Positions 1,299 to 13,632 of a stretch of 64,000 nucleotides of DNA are shown one piece after another. The notes under the pieces were generated by a model, which was not told where the DNA came from, did no database searches, and worked only from the letters and a program-made list of their open reading frames with translations. Both the position numbers and the translations under genes were made by a program. Where the stretch lies: NCBI GenBank assembly GCA_027621915.1, contig JAQCAD010000008.1:1-64000 (forward strand), read 5' to 3'. Position 1 is the stretch's first letter, and each line of letters begins with the position of its first letter. The stretch comes from Pseudomonadota bacterium. Lineage in GTDB: Bacteria; Pseudomonadota; Gammaproteobacteria; Steroidobacterales; Woeseiaceae.

Positions 1299-1354
1299 AG
1301 TATTGTTGATCATTGGTTTGCTCAGGATGGCAAGTATGGCAGTGCGGACAGGCA

Positions 1355-2281
1355 ATGAACAAATTTGAGCAGGCGTTGAGACGAGACCGGACCATTATTC
1401 TGGACGGAGGTTTCGCAACGCAACTGGAGGCCATGGGTTTCGATATCAGTGGAGCGGTATGGTCTGCAAAGCTTCTGGATAGCGACCCGCAAGCGATCAT
1501 TGATGCGCATCGGGCATACCTTGACGCCGGCGCTGACTGCATCATCAGTGCGAGTTACCAGGCGAGCCGCAGAGGGTTCATATCTTTGGGAAAAACGGCG
1601 GAAGAAGCGGACAGGCTGCTGGTGCTAAGCGTCAAACTGGCGATTGAAGCGCGACGGCGATTCGTGGCGGACACACACGATGGTCGGCAGCCCCTGGTGG
1701 CGGCGAGTATCGGACCGTACGGTGCCATTATGCGGGACGGTTCCGAATATACCGGTGACTACGGTGTTTCAGAACGGGATCTTCGAGATTTTCATGCTGA
1801 AAGATTGCGGCTCCTGGATCGAAGCGGTGCAGATGTGCTCGCCTGCGAAACGATTCCAAACATCATGGAAGCGAGGGTTCTTTGTGAATTGCTGATCAAT
1901 ATTGAAACGCCCGCGTGGATCTCCTTTTCATGCCGGGACCGGGAGCACATTTGTGATGGTACGAAACTTTCAGACGCGGTAGTCATGTTTGCCGATCATC
2001 CACGCGTGCTTGCAGTCGGCATCAACTGCACGCCACCGGCTTTCGTGGCTGCATTGATCCCGATCCTGAAAACTGCCGCCCCGAACAAGGCGATTGTTGT
2101 CTATCCGAATTCCGGAGAGACTTATCATGCAGATGACAAAACCTGGTCGGGTGCTACCTGCGATTTTGAAAACGACTTTAACGTATCGGCGTGGCGGGAC
2201 GCCGGCGCGAAACTGATCGGTGGCTGCTGTCGCACGGGACCGGGCGACATTGCTGCGATACGTCGTGTGTTGTGCGACTGA
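1355..2281 (+). CDS. mmuM: Homocysteine S-methyltransferase
   Basis: Zinc-dependent enzyme that transfers a methyl group from S-methylmethionine or a similar sulfonium donor to homocysteine, giving methionine in the cytoplasm. The 308 residues match E. coli MmuM in length. The three expected zinc cysteines are present: Cys225 in GINCTPP and Cys291-Cys292 in GGCCRTGPGDI. The N-terminal LDGGFATQLE motif opens the TIM barrel. An in-frame start 42 nt upstream would add an unlikely extension, so ATG 1355 is chosen. It lies beside, but on the strand opposite to, the corrinoid methyl-transfer cluster, so a shared role in methyl metabolism is only suggestive. It lacks the cobalamin-binding modules of MetH. 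A betaine-homocysteine type donor cannot be excluded from sequence alone. Confidence 0.88.
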   Translation: MNKFEQALRRDRTIILDGGFATQLEAMGFDISGAVWSAKLLDSDPQAIIDAHRAYLDAGADCIISASYQASRRGFISLGKTAEEADRLLVLSVKLAIEARRRFVADTHDGRQPLVAASIGPYGAIMRDGSEYTGDYGVSERDLRDFHAERLRLLDRSGADVLACETIPNIMEARVLCELLINIETPAWISFSCRDREHICDGTKLSDAVVMFADHPRVLAVGINCTPPAFVAALIPILKTAAPNKAIVVYPNSGETYHADDKTWSGATCDFENDFNVSAWRDAGAKLIGGCCRTGPGDIAAIRRVLCD

Positions 2282-4776: not shown

Positions 4777-6306
4777 TCAGGACCGGCCGCGCCTTCGCCC
4801 CTCACGGCCTCGTCGACCGGCCTGTGCTTTCGGTGCCTGCGTCGCAGGTGCCGGTGGCAGCACCGGCAATTTTTCCTGGCTGACAAATCCGGCGGATACA
4901 ATCCTGCGCATCGCCTGGTCGATTGCCGGATCCGTTTCAATCGCCTGGTAGGCGGCGAGTCGTTCTTCAACGCCATCAATGGCACGTTGGTTCAAATCCT
5001 TACTTCCTGCTTTCTCCCAGCTCTCACGGTTCTCGCGATCGATAACCGGATCAGTCAGGTATAGCTGGTCTGGCCAGTGTTTCAACGTGTGCGGACTGGT
5101 AATGAGATGATCGTCTCTCAACAGGTCGTCGACGAGGCTGGCAACCGGCAGGTCGTCCAGTACCTCTATTTCGCGTATGAAGTGCAGTGACTGGCCGCAA
5201 ACCTCGTTGTCGAAAACCAGTTTCGGCAGGCTGAAGGTCAGAACGAAATCGAGCATTCCAGGTCCGGAGACCGAGTTCACACCAGCGATCGCTGCAAGCA
5301 GGGCACTGGAGAAAGTTTCTCCGCCCGCCTGTGCGTCGAGAAACTTGCCGTCCGACAGTGCCATATAGGCCTGTGTTGGTAGTTTGAGTTTTTTTGCAAT
5401 GCCTACATACGCAACGTTCAGATGCTGCGCTTCGATCGCCGCCATCGGAGAACTCGCCGCCTTCATGTGGAAAGTGGCCGGAGCGCCACCGAAGAGCACC
5501 GGCGCGCCCGGGCGAATAATCTGGGCCATCGTAATACCGGTTAGTACGTCGACACAGTGAAAAACGAGCGCGCCGACCAGCGTCACCGGTGCGATGAGAC
5601 CCATAAGCGTGACCGGGACGATCTCGACCGGTATCCCGGCCTCGACACAATCCAGGAGGTTCTGGCAGGAATCTTCGCCGAAGCGGAAGTTGCCGGTCGC
5701 CGTGATCGTAAATATCGACATCGGCCTAGCGATCAGGTCTGCCCGGTCATCGCGGAACATTTGCATCATGTCGGCCATACGTGGCACGCCATGTTCGCCG
5801 AACGCGCCTGATACAACCGGTTTTTTGGACGTTGTCAGTGTCATGTACAAACGCCACACATCTGATACCTGCGGCTCGATGTCTTTGTTGGTTGAAAAAG
5901 CGGTCGCCAGGTAAGCGATGTTGTCGAGGCCGTCGCAAAGCCGGGCGTACTCGATGAAATCTGTCGAGTTAGCAAGCCGTGTCCGGCCCGTTCGATGATC
6001 AAGAATTTTCAGGCCGCTGGAACCAGGCACGTAGTGGACGTTATTCCCGCCAATTTCTGTATATGCGCCACCATCACGATTGAATAACGTGAAGGACGAT
6101 GGCGCGTCTGCGATAGCCTTCTCAACGACATCAGCAGGGAACAATATTCTCTTACCGCTGGCGTCGGTCTTTAAACCATGGTCCTGCAGGCGTTGCTTCA
6201 TCGTCTGGCCGCGGATTTCCATTCCGACCTCGGACATCAAACGCTTGGCTTCGGTCAGGATTTTGTCAATCTGCTCGTCACTGAGGACGGTTAATGTCGG
6301 ACGCAT
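4777..6306 (-). CDS. MttB-superfamily corrinoid-dependent methyltransferase (copy 2, non-pyrrolysine)
   Basis: Member of the trimethylamine methyltransferase superfamily (COG5598), a TIM-barrel enzyme that moves a methyl group from a methylated amine to the cobalt of a partner corrinoid protein. The 509 codons are continuous with no internal amber codon. It therefore belongs to the large pyrrolysine-free branch, whose studied members (such as MtgB) use glycine betaine or other quaternary amines rather than trimethylamine. Family-typical sequence includes the N-terminal [10 protein letters not shown], the central [13 protein letters not shown] and the [12 protein letters not shown] segment. 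The C-terminal tail is Ala/Pro- then Arg/Gly-rich and probably disordered. It is the last gene of the cluster, 9 nt after its paralogue. Substrate unknown. Confidence 0.85.
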
Positions 6307-6315
6307 CGGAGTTCC

Positions 6316-7866
6316 CTAATTGATAAGTCTGGCTATTTCTTCTTTACGTTTGGCTACATAACTATACAGTGCTTCTTCTATCGCAGGGTCTATTGGCGGT
6401 TTTTCATAATTGCGGAGTAGCGCCTTCCATATCGTATTGGCACGCGATGCGGTATCGATGCAGCCGGCTTCCTCCCACGCCTCAAAATTCTGTCGATTGG
6501 AGACAAGAGGCGCGTAGAACGCGGTTTCATATCTGGCAAGTGTGTGTGCTGTGCCGAAATGATGGCCACCCGGTGGAACTTCGGCGATTGTCTCGAGCGC
6601 GAGCTCGTCATCGTTAACAATGATAGGTCTCAGCGTCTCGGTCATCATTTGCAACATCTCTGCATCGACGATCAGTTTTTCGAAAGAGGCGGTGAGACCG
6701 CCTTCCAGCCATCCAGCGGCATGATTGACGAGATTTGCGTGCCCCATGATCGCGCCCCATAACGACATCTGACTTTCGTACGCTGATTGTGCATCAACAC
6801 AATTTGACGTTGTCGTATTACTGGAGCGAAACGGAATGCCAAGCCTGCGTGCAAGCTGGCCACTGGCAAATGCCATCTTCGTGTATTCGGGCGTGCCGAG
6901 GGCCGGTGCACCACTTTGCATATCAACATTCGACGCAAATGCACCATACATGACCGGCGCACCCGGTCGCACGATTTGCGCCAGAGTTACGACGGCCAGA
7001 ACTTCGGCCGTTTGTTGAGCCAGTGTTCCAGCAAGCGTTGCGGGACTCATGGACCCAGCCAGCGTAAATGGCGTGATACAAGTGACCTGCAGTGAGCGGG
7101 CAAGCTCAATCACCGCTTCTGTCATCGGAATGTCGAGTTGCATCGGCGAATTCGTATTGACGATTGCGAGCAAAGCAGGCTCGCGTTGCAGTTCCTCACG
7201 TTTGATGCCGAGTGCAATGCTGGTCATTTCCAGTCCGTCGACGATTCTTGCCCGGCCGAGTGCGACGCCTTGCGCGTTCTTGTCCATCAGCGTCAGTTGG
7301 GCGAGATGCAGATCAAGGTGTCTCGATTCCGGTGGCAAATCCATTGGCTCGAAACATCCGCCTCCTTCCTGGTGGATGATGTTCAGGCTCTGTATCAGCC
7401 GCAGGTAATCGCACATTTCCGCATAATTTCCCGGGCGGCGGCCCTTGTCGAGATCGCTGACAAATGCCGGCCCGCCAACTGCTGTGAAAACGATGCTGTT
7501 GGCGCCAATGTGCAGATTGCGTTCGGGGTTGCGGGCCCTGAGCCCGAATTCGGCCGGCGCGTGTGCAAGCATTTCGGTTACCAGGTCGCGGTCAAACCTG
7601 ACCATGCCGTCCGTATCAGAAGTGTCCGCACCGGCTCCCTTCAGAATTCCCCGGCTTTCCTGTTGCAGAAAACGGAATCCCTTTGTTTCAAGGATCGTGA
7701 GCGCAGCGCCAATGATACTTTCAACCTGGTCGGCGCTGAGCGATTCGATCGGTGCGAACGGGTTGCGGACAGTTTGCCAGGGCAGCTGGCGAACCGCATT
7801 GACATCGCGACGTTGTCGATGTCCGCGTCTGCTCACCGGAGCGCCTCCAGGGATTCGTGTCGCCAT
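6316..7866 (-). CDS. MttB-superfamily corrinoid-dependent methyltransferase (copy 1, non-pyrrolysine)
   Basis: Second TIM-barrel methyltransferase of the trimethylamine methyltransferase superfamily, 516 residues from the chosen ATG. It has the typical basic N-terminal tail (SRRGHRQRRD) leading into LPWQTVRNPFAPIESLSADQVE and the QIVRPGAPVMYGAF signature shared with its neighbour. It has no in-frame amber codon. Its start lies 34 nt inside the reductase gene upstream, indicating tight coupling; a start at 7896 would lengthen the overlap further. The two copies differ clearly in sequence, so they may act on different methylated amines or on two steps of one compound. It should act with the corrinoid protein encoded at 11493-12194. 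Confidence 0.85.
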   Translation of the reverse strand: MATRIPGGAPVSRRGHRQRRDVNAVRQLPWQTVRNPFAPIESLSADQVESIIGAALTILETKGFRFLQQESRGILKGAGADTSDTDGMVRFDRDLVTEMLAHAPAEFGLRARNPERNLHIGANSIVFTAVGGPAFVSDLDKGRRPGNYAEMCDYLRLIQSLNIIHQEGGGCFEPMDLPPESRHLDLHLAQLTLMDKNAQGVALGRARIVDGLEMTSIALGIKREELQREPALLAIVNTNSPMQLDIPMTEAVIELARSLQVTCITPFTLAGSMSPATLAGTLAQQTAEVLAVVTLAQIVRPGAPVMYGAFASNVDMQSGAPALGTPEYTKMAFASGQLARRLGIPFRSSNTTTSNCVDAQSAYESQMSLWGAIMGHANLVNHAAGWLEGGLTASFEKLIVDAEMLQMMTETLRPIIVNDDELALETIAEVPPGGHHFGTAHTLARYETAFYAPLVSNRQNFEAWEEAGCIDTASRANTIWKALLRNYEKPPIDPAIEEALYSYVAKRKEEIARLIN

Positions 7867-8684
7867 TTCTCGGTCGTCGCTACCTGGTTGAAACAAAACA
7901 GATGATAGCCAGCGATTTTATTTGTCGGGTCCGCCTGGTATTTGGCGAGATTCAGTACGAGTTCATCGGGATTGTAAATGCTCGATTTCATCAATTGTGC
8001 TGCGACGTGAGATTTCTTGCGGAGGAATCTCAGCGAGTCGCCTACGCCGATTCTAAGAGACGTTCTTATCAGCCGGCCCCGATCGATTACACCGGGCAAG
8101 CCGATCCAGACCGGGAGGTGGATTCCTCGTGACCGCATATCGCGCAACCAGGATCCGAGAACGTCCGCTTCAAAACACATTTGCGTCACCATGTATGTAC
8201 AAAGAGATTGTTTCTTCTCCAGTTCGCGAAACAGGGTTTCGTTATCGACGTCCGGATGTCCTTCCGGGTGCGCGCCAACGCCGATTTCCTTGAAGTCGTG
8301 ACCAACTTCATCGATAGCTGCAAGCAGCTGCCATGCGCTTGTGAACTCGCCTTCCGGACTTGGTCTGTCCCCGCCCGGTACGAACAGGCTTTCGATCCGG
8401 AGACTGTCCAGTCGCCGCATGATCTCGCGCAGGTGGCTCATGTCACGAACATTCCTGGCAGCAACGTGTGGCACGACACGAAAACCGGAGCCGATCAGTC
8501 GTTCTGTCATATCCAGTGTATCGTCAACACCCTTCGTGGGCGAACACGTCACTGCCACATATGAATTGGGCTCTAAAATCGCAAGTTCCTTTTCAATATC
8601 CGGCGAGGGAAAGACTTCCATGTAGGCTTCTCGCAGATCATGTATCAGAACGCGACGTTCCGTGTCAGTTTCCGGTCGCCTCAT
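7833..8684 (-). CDS. Methylenetetrahydrofolate reductase family protein
   Basis: A 283-residue TIM-barrel flavoprotein of the MetF family. In this cluster it most likely runs in the oxidative direction, turning methyl-THF from demethylation into methylene-THF. The MetF core is visible in VVPHVAARNV, LFVPGGDRPSP, GVGAHPEGHPD and VTQMCFEADVL, which line up with PHLT, ALRGD, YPEVHPE and ITQFFFD of E. coli MetF. The sequence is divergent and of the type usually found beside corrinoid methyltransferases, not the biosynthetic MetF. It starts with a 4-nt overlap with the activator gene and its end overlaps the first MttB-type gene. Direct participation in methylcorrinoid-to-folate transfer cannot be excluded. 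Confidence 0.82.
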   Translation of the reverse strand: MRRPETDTERRVLIHDLREAYMEVFPSPDIEKELAILEPNSYVAVTCSPTKGVDDTLDMTERLIGSGFRVVPHVAARNVRDMSHLREIMRRLDSLRIESLFVPGGDRPSPEGEFTSAWQLLAAIDEVGHDFKEIGVGAHPEGHPDVDNETLFRELEKKQSLCTYMVTQMCFEADVLGSWLRDMRSRGIHLPVWIGLPGVIDRGRLIRTSLRIGVGDSLRFLRKKSHVAAQLMKSSIYNPDELVLNLAKYQADPTNKIAGYHLFCFNQVATTEKWRHESLEALR

Positions 8685-10684
8685 CGCCTCTTTCTCCGTC
8701 GCCCGGTTGCTTCGTTCTGATTCCTGCGCGCCGGAAGATTCACGACCTTCTGTAATTCATCAAATCTATCAATGTCGTGCGGTATTGCCATCGCGGCAAC
8801 GAAGTGTTCCTGAAAGCGCACCTCGACTGCTGTTTCTATCTTCTCGACGTTGCGCGTTTGTGTTTCGATCAGCACTCTCGATTTGCTATCAAGCAATGCG
8901 ATGCGAGCACCCGTGCCCGCTGCGTTTCCGGCCGAAGAAACCATGTCCAGCTTACAATCGGGGATCATCCCGAGAACCATCGCGTATTTGACGTCAATGT
9001 GCGCGCCAAATGCCCCGGCCAACCGGATGCGATCAACCTTTTCGATTCCGAGTTTTTCCATCAACAGCCGCGCGCCCGCGTACAACGCTGCCTTGGCAAG
9101 CTGAATGGCCCTGACGTCGTTTTGTTGAATACTGATGCCGGGCTCACCTTGTACAAGAGTGTAGGAGAATGTCCTGCCATCGGCCCTGACCCGGTCTGAT
9201 CTCTCTGTGGCGTCCGCCGCTATCGTGCCGTCGGCACGAATAACGCCGGCGAGAAACAACTCGGCAATTGCCTCGATAATTCCTGAGCCACAAATACCAG
9301 TGACACCGCACGCCGGTATCGAATCCATGAATGCCGGGTCGTCCGACCACAGGTCGCAGCCGATGATCTTGTACTTTGGCGTGAGCGTTTCCGGGTCAAC
9401 CCTGACTCGTTCGATGGCGCCCGGGGCAGCGCGCTGACCAGCGCTGATCTGTGCACCCTCAAACGCCGGTCCGGTTGGACTAGACGCAGCCAGAATTCTG
9501 TTGCGATTTCCGAGCAGCATCTCCGCATTCGTGCCAACGTCGACGATCAGGGATACTTCGTCGCGTTCATAGGGTGCCTCTGCGAGTAAAACGCCCGCCG
9601 CATCCGCACCGACATGGCCGGCAATGCAGGGCAGGGCATAGACATAGCCGCCGCCGTTGATGGTTAATCCAATGTCTCTTGCCGGAATCCGCATCGCAGC
9701 GTCGCTGGTCAGCGCGAATGGCGCCATGCCCAGTTCAACGGGATTCAGCCCAAGCACAAGATGCATCATGATCGGATTGCCAACGATCGCGACTTCGACG
9801 ACTTCGTCCAGCTGCAATTTGGCACCGGCGACAACTTCCCCGATGAGATTGTTGAGCGCTTCACGGACAACAGACGTCAGTTCTTTCTCGCCGCCTTTGT
9901 TCATCATGATGTAGGAAACCCGGCTCATCAGGTCTTCGCCGAATCGAATCTGTGGATTCATCTGCCCGGCACTGCCGAGCACATCTCCGCTGGCCAGATC
10001 GCAAATATGTGCGGCGATAGTGGTAGAGCCGATATCGATGGCGACTCCATAAAGTCGGGTCTTAAGTCCGGGCCAGACAGATACGATTTCACCATCGGTT
10101 CTGATCGCAGCCGTTACTTGCCAGTCGCCTTTTCGCAAAGTTGCCTGCAATCCTTGCAGCGCGGCAAACGAAATCGTCAGGTTCTTAAGGTCCCAGTCGC
10201 GCCCGAGCGCCGCTATCAGACGTTCCAGGTCGCCACTCGGGTCATGCATGTCAGGTTCCGCAACTTCGACAAAATAGGAATGTGTTTCCGGGTTGATCTC
10301 GATGTCGTGCGCTTCATGGGGTTTGCGGATGACCTGCTTGTGAACCTGGCTCGAAGCAGGCACATCGATTGCGACATCTCCAAGCAATGTCGCCTGACAC
10401 CCCAGGCGCCTGTTGGCGGCCAGGTTCCTGCGCGCGGAGTACCGCGCTTCCGTCTCCCCTCTTGCGGTCAGATTTTGAAGTTGCGAATCGATTCCGTGTT
10501 TCGCCAGCTCTCCCTCCGTCACGACCACCTGGCAGCGGCCGCACATTGCGCGGCCACCGCAGACAGAATCGAGATCAACATTCAGACTTCGCGCCGCGTG
10601 CAGGACAGAAGTGCCCACAGGAAAACGACCACGCTTTCCGGACGGGGAAAAGACTATCAGCGGTTGATATGGTTTTGTCATCAC
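8681..10684 (-). CDS. Corrinoid-protein reductive activator with [2Fe-2S] and ASKHA domains
   Basis: ATP-dependent reactivase (RACE type, DUF4445/COG3894) that returns accidentally oxidised Co(II) on the corrinoid protein to Co(I). The 667-residue protein starts with a plant-type ferredoxin domain: Cys42, Cys48, Cys51 and Cys96 have the [2Fe-2S] spacing (CGGRAMCGRC, later RLGCQA). The C-terminal two thirds is an actin-like ATPase fold with GVAIDIGSTTIA around residues 213-223 and a second phosphate loop in VDVGTNAEM. Methanogen RamA instead carries [4Fe-4S] clusters. The end overlaps the MetF-like gene by 4 nt. The 197 nt between this start and the DUF1638 gene contain no credible reading frame and could hold an internal promoter. 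Confidence 0.88.
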   Translation of the reverse strand: MMTKPYQPLIVFSPSGKRGRFPVGTSVLHAARSLNVDLDSVCGGRAMCGRCQVVVTEGELAKHGIDSQLQNLTARGETEARYSARRNLAANRRLGCQATLLGDVAIDVPASSQVHKQVIRKPHEAHDIEINPETHSYFVEVAEPDMHDPSGDLERLIAALGRDWDLKNLTISFAALQGLQATLRKGDWQVTAAIRTDGEIVSVWPGLKTRLYGVAIDIGSTTIAAHICDLASGDVLGSAGQMNPQIRFGEDLMSRVSYIMMNKGGEKELTSVVREALNNLIGEVVAGAKLQLDEVVEVAIVGNPIMMHLVLGLNPVELGMAPFALTSDAAMRIPARDIGLTINGGGYVYALPCIAGHVGADAAGVLLAEAPYERDEVSLIVDVGTNAEMLLGNRNRILAASSPTGPAFEGAQISAGQRAAPGAIERVRVDPETLTPKYKIIGCDLWSDDPAFMDSIPACGVTGICGSGIIEAIAELFLAGVIRADGTIAADATERSDRVRADGRTFSYTLVQGEPGISIQQNDVRAIQLAKAALYAGARLLMEKLGIEKVDRIRLAGAFGAHIDVKYAMVLGMIPDCKLDMVSSAGNAAGTGARIALLDSKSRVLIETQTRNVEKIETAVEVRFQEHFVAAMAIPHDIDRFDELQKVVNLPARRNQNEATGRRRKRR

Positions 10685-10881
10685 AACTAACCGTGAACGG
10701 CGAGCCGCCGCCTGTTACCGCATCGCCCGGTCCGCGGCGACTGCCCGGAATTCGTTCCGCGACCGGAGTGAATCCAGACGGAACAATTGACATCGGGTCC
10801 CTTGATGACTTTCTTGTTGGCAGAGCTGATTACCGTATGGGTCATTTCTTTGATCTCTGTTGTAGGTCTGATAAATGCCGG

Positions 10882-11484
10882 TCAGTTCTGCCAGGTAATG
10901 ACCTGCTCCCTGATGATATTCTCGACGAGCTGTAGTCCGGTTCGGTGCTCGATGTATTCGAGACCGAGAAATTCTGCATGCCCCCTGGCGAGCGCCGCCA
11001 GGTCTTCATTTTCAGACTGCGCCAGAAACACGAGCCTTCTGTAGTTGCCAAAGTACTGATCTTTGAGTTCCGGGTGCCGATCGAGCCCAAGTCCCTTAAC
11101 GACCAGTCGATCGAAATGCCGCGCAAGAAAATCAGTCAGGTAAAACGTGCCAGGTTCGGCCTCGGCAAACTCGCTGAAAGCGTCTGCGCCGGTGAAAAAC
11201 TCGTAGCAATGCGCGCCGGGGATCCGCTCAACATCATATTTTTCGAGAACCTTGTCGAGCCGACCGCCAGTGCCACAGTCTGCATAGGCGACGAAAATAT
11301 TCGTATAGTCGTCACGAAATTTTTCGATGGTTGCCGCAACAGCGTCCGGTATTCGTTCCGGTCGATTGTGCAATTCGGCAGGCAGACATTGAATGCGAAT
11401 ATGCTCCCATTCGTTGCGGCGCAGTATCTCGACCAGTTCCCGCGCCAGCGCACCGCACGCGATGACCAGAGCACCGGCAGCCAT
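10882..11484 (-). CDS. DUF1638 protein of corrinoid methyltransferase cluster
   Basis: A 200-residue cytoplasmic protein of the DUF1638 family, known from many genomes to sit beside MttB-type methyltransferases and their corrinoid proteins, with no proven biochemical role that I can name. It begins with a short strand and glycine turn (VIACGALARELVEIL). Cysteine and histidine residues are conserved-looking in LPAELHNRP, YADCGTGG and GAHCYEFF, and could bind a metal or a cofactor. The gene follows the corrinoid gene by 8 nt, so co-expression is nearly certain. Assistance with corrinoid loading or with methyl transfer are guesses from context only. Confidence 0.8.
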   Translation of the reverse strand: MAAGALVIACGALARELVEILRRNEWEHIRIQCLPAELHNRPERIPDAVAATIEKFRDDYTNIFVAYADCGTGGRLDKVLEKYDVERIPGAHCYEFFTGADAFSEFAEAEPGTFYLTDFLARHFDRLVVKGLGLDRHPELKDQYFGNYRRLVFLAQSENEDLAALARGHAEFLGLEYIEHRTGLQLVENIIREQVITWQN

Positions 11485-11492
11485 TTCGTTCG

Positions 11493-12194
11493 TTACATCG
11501 CGCGTCGTTGAGCAACCAAACTCTTGGCTACTTCAACGGCGGTGGCGGCATCCCGACAATAGGCATCTGCACCGACGGCCTGACCGAACTCTTCGTTGAG
11601 TGGTGCGCCACCGACCATGACGATGTAGTCGTTTCGGATACCTCGTTCTTTCATCGTATCGATAACCACTTTCATGTACGGCATCGTCGTCGTCAGCAAA
11701 GCGGACATACCCAGAATGTCCGGTTTTTCTCTCTCGAGGGCTGCGATATAGGCGTCAGCGTCGGTATTGATACCCAGGTCGATTACCTCAAACCCGGCCC
11801 CTTCCATCATCATGCCAACGAGGTTCTTGCCGATATCGTGGATGTCGCCTTTGACAGTACCGATCACCATTTTACCTACGGGCTTCGCACCGGTTTCGGC
11901 CAGGAGCGGCCTTAGTATCGCCATACCGGCTTTCATTGAATTTGCGGCGAGCAGCACTTCCGGCACGAACAGGATACCGTCGCGAAAGTCTGCGCCAACA
12001 ATATTCATGCCGCCGACCAGCGCATCGTCAAGCACTCTGCTGGGGTCCCATCCCCGCCCCAGCAGGATATTGGTACCGTCTCGAATTTCATCGGCAAGAC
12101 CATCGTAAAGATCGTCGAACATCTGTTCGACGAGTTCCTCGTCCGAAAGGTCTGCCAGGACAATGTCGTCCCCGCTGTCGTCGTAATCTGTCAT
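11493..12194 (-). CDS. Corrinoid methyl-carrier protein (MttC/MtgC type)
   Basis: Carrier that accepts a methyl group from the MttB-type enzymes on its cobalt and delivers it to the next acceptor. The 233 residues contain an N-terminal four-helix cap (about 15-100, with the FVPEVLLAANSM motif) and a Rossmann-like B12-binding domain. The base-off/His-on signature is present: Asp117-x-His119-x-x-Gly122 in GDIHDIGKN, then MSALLTTTMP and VMVGGAPLN. The acidic first 25 residues are longer than usual. It is the first gene of a minus-strand run of six, and the upstream 280 nt should contain the main promoter. Product family is firm; the methyl donor is not known. Confidence 0.92.
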   Translation of the reverse strand: MTDYDDSGDDIVLADLSDEELVEQMFDDLYDGLADEIRDGTNILLGRGWDPSRVLDDALVGGMNIVGADFRDGILFVPEVLLAANSMKAGMAILRPLLAETGAKPVGKMVIGTVKGDIHDIGKNLVGMMMEGAGFEVIDLGINTDADAYIAALEREKPDILGMSALLTTTMPYMKVVIDTMKERGIRNDYIVMVGGAPLNEEFGQAVGADAYCRDAATAVEVAKSLVAQRRAM

Positions 12195-12535: not shown

Positions 12536-13525
12536 CTAACGTCGAGGGGTATATTTGACGATCTGCTTCGGTCCGACTTCCGCGCCGTAGATATTGCCGT
12601 CCCGATCGACAGCGACACCCTCGGCAGCAGTGGTGCCTGCATTATCAGGATCCGGATTAGGATCCGGAATGTGCGCAGTGACCCAGCCATCGAACGCGCT
12701 GCCAATGTAGATTCCGCGTGCATAGCCGCGATTCATTCCCCAGGTCGTATTCGATTCGGAGTCCGCAGCGTAGAGAACGTCGTTCTGATCGATGAACAGG
12801 CCGCTCGGCCGGCCAAACTGCGTCCAGGTCTCGAGGTGATTACCTTCCTGGTCGAATATCTGGATACGATTATTCGCCCGGTCACCGATGAAGAGCCGTC
12901 CGGTCGAGTCCATTGCCAACGCGTGTGGGTCGCGAAATTCGCCATACTCTCTGCCTGTCGAACCCCAGGTTTTGACGAACTCACCGTCGGCATTGAATTT
13001 CATGACGCGGTTGTTGCCCTCGTCACCGTGACCGTCGACCACGAAGATGCTGCCATCGGGCGCTACGAGTACATCCGATGGCTGGTTGAATTCATCCATG
13101 CCGTCGCCGGCGACACCGGCTTTTCCAAGGCTCATGAGCAACTCACCGTCGGGACTAAACTTGTGGACCTGGTGTCCCCTGCCTTCATGTCCACGGGCGT
13201 CCGTTACCCAGACATTGCCGTCTCGATCGACATGGATTCCATGCGGCCAGACGATCATGCCGGCGCCAAAACTGTTCAGCAGATTACCGTCGGAATCGAA
13301 GTGAAAAACGTTATCGAGGTCTTCATGTCCAACGCATGTATTCTCACCACAGCGTTCGGCCACCCACACAGTTCCGTCAGGTGATGTATAAACAGCGCTG
13401 GTTGATCCCCACGCTCGACCAATGTTTCCCCAACCGGCTGTGCCTGCATACGGATTCGCGGCTGCAGCAGCCAGCGCCGCCGATAAAACGAGCAGACCGC
13501 CCATCGTGATTCGGACAAATTTCAT
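12536..13525 (-). CDS. Secreted NHL-repeat beta-propeller protein
   Basis: A 329-residue exported six-bladed propeller related to peptidyl-alpha-hydroxyglycine lyase and other NHL proteins. The signal peptide occupies about residues 1-24 (MKFVRITMGG, then an Ala-rich core ending in AAAANP). Repeated blade motifs are evident: WPHGIHVDRDGNVWVTD, FNQPSDVLVAPDGSIFVVD, DPHALAMDSTGRLFIGD, RPSGLFIDQNDVLYAAD and AAEGVAVDRDGNIYGAE. AGGAG precedes ATG 13525, which excludes the longer frame from 13606. NHL proteins bind or hydrolyse diverse ligands, so activity cannot be assigned. A palindrome lies between it and the divergent M1 peptidase gene. Confidence 0.8.
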   Translation of the reverse strand: MKFVRITMGGLLVLSAALAAAAANPYAGTAGWGNIGRAWGSTSAVYTSPDGTVWVAERCGENTCVGHEDLDNVFHFDSDGNLLNSFGAGMIVWPHGIHVDRDGNVWVTDARGHEGRGHQVHKFSPDGELLMSLGKAGVAGDGMDEFNQPSDVLVAPDGSIFVVDGHGDEGNNRVMKFNADGEFVKTWGSTGREYGEFRDPHALAMDSTGRLFIGDRANNRIQIFDQEGNHLETWTQFGRPSGLFIDQNDVLYAADSESNTTWGMNRGYARGIYIGSAFDGWVTAHIPDPNPDPDNAGTTAAEGVAVDRDGNIYGAEVGPKQIVKYTPRR

Positions 13526-13632
13526 TTGAATCTCCTGTTTTGTTTCTTCGTTAAGCAGTGTAGCCCACGCAACAGCATGCTGATGGCTCGATTCCAAAGA
13601 TATCACTTAGCTTGAGAAGAATAACGAGGTTT

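Follow-up and report, generated by a model that had tools for sequence, protein, structure and literature searches.

A Woeseiaceae-like gammaproteobacterium with a corrinoid methyl-transfer operon that probably borrows its folate methyltransferase from a second locus

Gene content of the corrinoid methyltransferase cluster

The window analyzed here is a 64,000-nucleotide stretch of the draft genome of a Woeseiaceae-like gammaproteobacterium (assembly GCA_027621915.1, contig JAQCAD010000008.1, positions 1 to 64,000), and our subject is a cluster of corrinoid methyltransferase genes within it. Six intact genes, all on the minus strand, fill positions 4777-12194 exactly and have zero internal stops in an open reading frame (ORF) check. 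In the order of transcription they encode the carrier MtgC, a DUF1638 protein, a RamA-type activator, a MetF-like protein (MetF2) and two MttB-superfamily proteins, MttB2 and MttB1 (Table 1). A first-pass annotation, made from the DNA sequence alone, had described six stop-free minus-strand genes over this span, which is borne out, with the domains identified by Pfam. It had also described them as one unit served by one carrier. The genes do share one orientation, but the series is interrupted by a 197-bp interval that holds the remnant of a mtgD gene, and the only carrier of the cluster is one of two in the genome, 77% identical to each other. As that annotation had said, the cluster is without a betaine transporter, and in fact none of its six genes encodes any transporter; a BCCT transporter is encoded elsewhere, at a second mtg locus. 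The annotation's interpretation is supported in part; the loss of the folate methyltransferase, and hence the probable dependence on a second locus, had been overlooked.

The most likely start of MttB2 is the GTG at 7836, giving a 4-nt overlap with MetF2, rather than an upstream TTG. The closest named carriers to the MtgC of the window come from Woeseiaceae metagenome-assembled genomes (MAGs; 88% and 90% identity). NCBIfam MtgC models match it with a score below the cut-off. It is 75-90% identical to the carriers of the 80 named loci that were kept, and is in this respect a free carrier of the MtgBCD system. A pyrrolysine-free MttB donor adjoins the carrier, and the RamA-type activator and DUF1638 are present, whereas MtgD (PF00809) is represented inside the operon by the fossil only and has its intact copy on contig C54. 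An NHL-repeat protein is encoded at 12536-13606, upstream of MtgC and in its orientation; a member of this family neighbours the cluster in 5 of the 19 loci that were compared, the window being one of them.

Table 1 Features of the corrinoid methyltransferase cluster and PF13769 genes in other loci
Feature	Position	Strand	Description
mtgC-type corrinoid carrier	11493..12194	-	233 amino acids (aa); Pfam B12-binding and B12-binding_2; acidic N-terminal extension
DUF1638 protein	10882..11484	-	200 aa; PF07796, 108.6 bits; without basic tail
Interval between DUF1638 and activator, PF13769 gene missing	10685..10881	-	197 bp
mtgD fossil	10687..10845	-	in-frame ORF of 52 codons; 250 internal codons deleted; basic tail retained
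RamA-type [2Fe-2S]/ASKHA corrinoid activator	8681..10684	-	667 aa; Pfam Fer2, RACo_linker, Raco_middle, RACo_C_ter; C-terminal tail GRRRKRR
MetF-like protein (MetF2)	7833..8684	-	283 aa; MTHFR, 36.4 bits; no tail
MttB2, MttB superfamily	6316..7836	-	MTTB, 614.7 bits; basic N-terminal stretch SRRGHRQRR
MttB1, diverged MttB superfamily	4777..6306	-	509 aa; MTTB, 261.3 bits; C-terminal basic tail
PF13769 genes	L095:1214-1510, L009:1166-1462, L267:10285-10620		small proteins encoded with MtgD

Relation to known systems

Judged by its gene content, the cluster is of the MtgC-type kind described in Ruegeria and Phaeobacter, where genetics and proteomics back this set of components. In Ruegeria pomeroyi, MtgC and the pterin-binding MtgD are required for betaine demethylation and methionine synthesis, and two MttB-superfamily proteins, RamA, DUF1638 and a MetF paralogue increase on N-osmolytes (PMC12478193, Mausz et al. 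2025). The same study reports that the mtg set need not share one operon, and that expression of mtgC across the global ocean is frequently above that of the previously known betaine pathways. In Phaeobacter, DUF1638 and a RamA-like protein have been linked to B12 reactivation (PMC5764234, Price et al. 2018). The MtgBCD/MtgCDE systems of R. pomeroyi and Phaeobacter inhibens are like that of the window in their free MtgC, MttB donors, RamA, DUF1638 and MetF2 and in being aerobic (PMC12478193; PMC5764234). Unlike them, the window has MttB2 and MttB1 types, a mtgD fossil and no PF13769 gene, its MtgD would come from another locus, and the genome encodes MetH.

The MtgB/MtgC/MtgA system of Desulfitobacterium hafniense (2qne, 9yce) shares the MttB fold without pyrrolysine, but the match to 9yce begins at residue 9 of its 477 and at residue 41 of MttB2, so that the 9yce chain is without an N-terminal extension like that of MttB2. 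Methanosarcina MttB-MttC (7xcl, 7xcn; PMC9842639) likewise combines an MttB-superfamily enzyme and its cognate corrinoid carrier, although that MttB, unlike those of the window, is a pyrrolysine enzyme and its carrier is held mainly by a dimerization loop. RACo/AcsV activators (3zyy) have the Fer2 and RACo domains of the window activator, which in contrast extends 29 residues past the match and ends in the basic tail.

The mtgD remnant and a second locus

In relatives, the interval between the DUF1638 and activator genes holds two genes, one for a PF13769 protein of about 99 aa (seen at this place in L095, L014, L015 and others) and then mtgD. The fossil in the window corresponds to a relative's MtgD, 302 residues long, in which residues 13-262 are deleted and residues 1-12 run in frame into residues 263-302. 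Against the MtgD of the sister genome G007 it scores 139, with 28/52 identities, where the best of 1000 shuffles scores 29. The PF13769 gene gave no tblastn match anywhere in the window. Two other loci are without mtgD between DUF1638 and RamA (L016, genome G106; L110, genome G025). All three genomes encode MtgD elsewhere and the sister genome keeps both copies; in the three cases seen, mtgD is absent from the interval only where another copy exists.

PF13769 proteins are also encoded in 46 of the 47 named loci with MtgD, the exception being L033. In Azoarcus sp. KH32C the protein is annotated as 'virulence factor' and its gene lies between those for DUF1638 and MetF/MtgD. By neighbourhood, this 'Virulence factor' family looks like a component of the B12 methyl-transfer pathway rather than of virulence. 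Literature searches on PF13769, and on the charged tails described below, returned nothing bearing on either.

Three PF00809 proteins are encoded in the assembly: a FolP-like protein on C97 (read by eye), MetH on C2 and MtgD on C54. RamA and DUF1638 each have one copy, both in the window, and the free carriers, MetH aside, are that of the window and one on C47. Beyond MetF2, MTHFR matches lie on C2 near MetH (340 bits) and on C39 (63 bits). Contigs C47 and C54 are likely to be one locus, encoding MttB54 (divided between the ends of the two contigs), a PF13769 protein, MtgD, the second carrier, MttB47, the BCCT transporter, a BKACE enzyme, flavin adenine dinucleotide (FAD)-GCV_T fusions of the sarcosine/dimethylglycine-dehydrogenase type and a carnitine 3-dehydrogenase (728 bits, cut-off 592). 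The carnitine-to-betaine locus (L010:3473-16914) comprises carnitine 3-dehydrogenase with a thioesterase domain, BKACE, enoyl-CoA hydratase, BCCT, the second MtgC and MttB. MttB54 is probably the glycine-betaine enzyme, and a better candidate for that role than MttB1 or MttB2; its best match in the PDB is Sinorhizobium meliloti 4yyc and it adjoins the carnitine 3-dehydrogenase, the sarcosine-type dehydrogenases and BCCT.

Because the only MtgD is on C54 and the only RamA and DUF1638 are in the window, as counted in this assembly, the two loci seem to need each other. We consider it probable that the cluster is an aerobic MtgC-type corrinoid methyl-transfer operon that borrows MtgD from the second locus. 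MttB2 and MttB1 would each demethylate an amine of its own, probably a quaternary one, and load the methyl group onto the Co(I) cobalamin of MtgC, and MtgD would pass it from MtgC to tetrahydrofolate, a direction of flow that we infer. MetF2 would presumably oxidize methyl-tetrahydrofolate towards formate/CO2, while RamA with DUF1638 would re-reduce carriers that have fallen to Co(II). As mtgD and the accompanying PF13769 gene have been deleted from the operon, MtgD would be supplied by the C47/C54 carnitine/betaine locus, which would depend in turn on RamA and DUF1638 from the window. The fossil is a natural experiment, in which two loci of one genome are seemingly functional only jointly, and a caution that a cluster without mtgD does not imply that the pathway is absent.

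Several observations weigh against this reading. The draft is fragmented (101 contigs, 95% complete), so that 'only copy' means in this assembly, and a strain mixture or a second copy is possible. MetF2 is only a distant MTHFR relative (36 bits), and the sole NCBIfam match of both MttB proteins is TIGR02369, the pyrrolysine MttB family, well under its cut-off (298 and 281 bits for the two, cut-off 525). In addition, L110 is without MttB2 and MttB1 in the stretch seen, so that the absence of mtgD there may not reflect loss from the same operon.

Two MttB paralogues

MttB1 and MttB2 are 24% identical. The position of pyrrolysine is occupied by Leu in MttB1 and by Thr in MttB2, and neither gene has an in-frame TAG, so the label pyrrolysine-free given at first pass is correct. 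MttB2 is homologous to 9yce, 2qne and 4yyc. In phmmer comparisons with 9yce, MttB2 scores 299 bits and MttB1 171 bits, and an AlphaFold2 model of MttB1 matches the MtgB fold (template modelling score 0.84-0.90 to 9yce/2qne). Because this model has the MtgB fold, and because MtgC, RamA, DUF1638 and MetF2 match the Ruegeria set, the best reading of the system is a pyrrolysine-free corrinoid methyltransferase for methylated, most likely quaternary, amines. The earlier attribution to quaternary amines stands to that extent. Among the neighbours of MttB2 and MttB1 in relatives, read by eye, there is no consistent transporter or catabolic gene; they include multihaem-like, PdxH-like, trigger-factor-like and FAD oxidase-like proteins. 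MttB2 and MttB1 form a conserved pair, and we name substrates for neither.

Alternative explanations of the operon

The first-pass annotation had offered two substrates or two sequential demethylations. That the two enzymes work sequentially on one compound (e.g. from tri- to di- to monomethyl) would fit their arrangement, as each of the 16 loci with MttB1, among the 19 compared, has MttB2 next to it, but we consider it unlikely. A MttB1-type relative (67% identical) occurs in L259 without a listed MttB2 neighbour, and MttB2-type relatives (50% and 46%) occur in L262 and L263 without MttB1; FAD/GCV_T dehydrogenases usually catalyse the N-demethylations of betaine that come later, and genes of this type sit here at the second locus. 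Because relatives of the two types are found apart, the evidence leans towards two distinct substrates rather than an obligatory sequential pair, without settling the matter. A mainly biosynthetic role is barely credible. The cluster would then be a split methionine synthase (MtgCDE), as homologues of MtgC, RamA and DUF1638 serve methionine synthesis in Phaeobacter (PMC5764234), and a PF02574 gene 2.5 kb away (1352-2281, plus strand) would provide MtgE. We rejected this candidate since a full MetH is encoded on C2 and the PF02574 protein is of the PRK09485 type (363.6 bits, cut-off 215) and without a basic tail, against 37 of 37 tailed PF02574-type proteins near mtgC in the named loci. It is a homocysteine S-methyltransferase that is probably unrelated to the corrinoid system.

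Two further explanations concern the deletion itself. Loss of two genes from one interval could mean that the operon is decaying and no longer supports demethylation. This is very unlikely given that the six remaining frames are intact, that charged ends are kept on MtgC, RamA, MttB2 and MttB1, that the genome retains one MtgD and a PF13769 gene elsewhere, and that the two other genomes without mtgD in this interval also have MtgD elsewhere. An artefact of mixed-strain assembly is quite improbable, although the draft is metagenome-like, the C47/C54 ends (L010:1-189, L009:1-189) share a 189-bp overlap that contains 8 mismatches, which points to strain mixture or two copies, and the same deletion junction was found in no other genome of the genus (12 searched, own included). 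The fossil is in frame, has diverged from the relative's gene and is coupled to the loss of a second gene, and absence of mtgD from the interval recurs in those two other genomes.

Charged ends of the carrier and its partners

In the window, MtgC has a net charge of -10 in its first 25 residues. The last 20 residues of MttB1 and of RamA each carry +7 and the first 25 of MttB2 +6, while DUF1638 and MetF2 are near neutral. The tail of MttB1 (residues 492-509) is predicted to be unstructured in a single-chain model (predicted local distance difference test, pLDDT, < 50). In the 80 named loci, which were picked as the closest carrier relatives, we counted proteins whose last 20 residues include at least four Arg; the sequences are related, and for that reason the counts are not independent trials. 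Such tails are present in 39/41 RamA, 39/43 MtgD, 37/37 PF02574 proteins taken as MtgE and 5/5 MttB1, compared with 5/70 DUF1638, 0/19 MetF2, 0/26 MttB54-type, 1/6 MttB2 and 2/73 MtgC proteins, and 111/667 background ORFs, many of which are spurious. Duplicates by the last 60 residues were removed from these C-terminal counts, as were alignments ending >45 residues (named loci) or >60 residues (controls) before the query end; frames cut by the end of a named locus were kept (e.g. RamA of L087, MtgD of L076), and some misses are artefacts. With a stricter rule, net charge of at least +4 in the last 15 residues, and with rows from the window and its own genome included, the counts are 29/42 for RamA, 28/44 for MtgD, 25/38 for MtgE and 6/6 for MttB1, against 1/71 for DUF1638, 1/20 for MetF2, 10/75 for MtgC and 55/667 for background ORFs.

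The other MttB types have a basic stretch near the N-terminus instead. A stretch like that of MttB2 is found in L014, L015, L072, L017, L018 and L016, and the best 25-residue stretch of MttB54-type proteins reaches at least +6 in 24/27, when sought in the region that begins 70 residues ahead of the approximate core start and ends 40 residues past it, with upstream untranslated residues included. A cruder nearest-ATG rule, which is weak and often finds an internal Met, gives a net +4 N-terminus in 12/29 located MttB rows of the tailed group and 0/24 located control rows (37 rows were entered and 8 were unlocated, all 7 MttB2 and 1 MttB54). An annotated start in Aminobacter supports one N-terminal MttB extension. 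Annotated proteins of Azoarcus and of the Aminobacter plasmid mostly fit the pattern, and one Azoarcus MetF also has four Arg in its last 20 residues. On that plasmid, pAA02 (L268:5501-13691), MttB and MtgC lie beside a racemase-family protein, a FAD oxidoreductase and a pyrroline-5-carboxylate (P5C)-reductase-like protein, a neighbourhood that we take to be reminiscent of proline-betaine catabolism.

The 38 N-terminal residues of the carriers have a median net charge of -14 (-17 to -10, n=79). Controls were drawn from the phylum of L020, a Chloroflexi MAG, in which 26 of 151 genomes have a MttB homologue; 20 of the 26 were searched for activators and carriers. In these Chloroflexota the same carrier segment has a median of -3 (-6 to +1, n=26; the rhizobial MtgC of L134 was excluded from 27 rows, and frames of at least 330 aa fall outside the set). 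At least four Arg in the last 20 residues were found in 0/30 activators, 0/26 carriers, 0/8 PF02574 proteins, 1/12 PF00809 proteins, 1/4 MetH, 1/3 DUF1638, 2/25 MttB2/MttB47-like and 1/3 MttB1-like proteins, with one control row, L149, being a 93-aa fragment. Genomes G187, G125, G203 and G211 have homologues of MttB, RamA, DUF1638 and MtgD, with PF13769-like matches in three; none of their MttB, RamA and MtgD ends has a basic tail, nor do the carriers observed in G125 and G211 have the acidic extension. Among these related sequences, basic partner ends often accompany an acidic carrier end and seldom occur otherwise. The exceptions are L020, L025 and L033, Chloroflexi records in which MtgD is tail-less despite an acidic carrier, and L166, a MttB1-like control with a true tail.

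Since proteins presumed to contact the carrier commonly bear tails, which DUF1638 and MetF2 rarely do, the carrier may be recognized through complementary unstructured charged ends, the acidic N-terminus of MtgC meeting Arg-rich ends, at either terminus, on MttB, MtgD, MtgE and RamA. Such a common code would let donors, acceptors and two carriers swap partners. We hold this reading tentatively, as falling just short of an even chance. These enzymes come from four different families, of which MttB, MtgD and MtgE are TIM barrels. The acidic N-terminus is found on both carriers, and Arg-rich ends on partners encoded at each locus, so that one set of docking ends would probably be common to the two loci. 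In MtaB-MtaC, recognition of the carrier has been attributed to an additional N-terminal domain (PMC9842639). As judged by term searches, neither the main text of PMC12478193 nor that of PMC5764234 mentions charged ends, and we saw no account in PMC12478193 of how a single free B12 carrier finds its several partners. A tail code, if true, would answer this question, would explain how one locus can do without its lost mtgD by borrowing that of another, and would let new carrier partners be predicted from sequence.

It is also quite possible, if somewhat short of an even chance, that the Arg-rich ends bind another target (nucleic acid, membrane or polyphosphate) or are a by-product of the ribosome-binding site of the next gene. 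Docking is read from a sequence pattern, and the four exceptions tell against it. The Arg codons of RamA tails are rich in AGR (0.26, against 0.07 in the body), and the purine-rich stretch of the window RamA tail precedes the MetF2 start. On the other hand, AGR has a frequency in tail and body of 0.05 and 0.03 for MtgD, 0.05 and 0.04 for MtgE, and 0.07 and 0.12 for MttB1. We therefore rejected a Shine-Dalgarno by-product for these three, in which AGR is about as rare as in the bodies, while it may contribute in RamA. Moreover, no gene of the window operon follows MttB1, other MttB proteins have their basic stretch at the N-terminus, and the controls are mostly without both the basic ends and the acidic carrier end.

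The DUF1638 protein

The AlphaFold2 model of DUF1638 is confident (pLDDT 91) and resembles two-lobed Rossmann-like proteins. Foldseek returned no match for it at E <= 0.001. The best VIA-align Z is 8.7, with mostly two-lobed sugar-binding proteins; models that lack a clear match typically reach 7 to 8 at best, and we assign the protein no function. Across 62 aligned proteins, Cys 10, 70 and 93 and His 39 and 92 are invariant, which may point to a metal or Fe-S site. As DUF1638 proteins are mostly without tails, we speculate that, if the tails are a docking code, DUF1638 works on RamA or on the free cofactor and not on the carrier.

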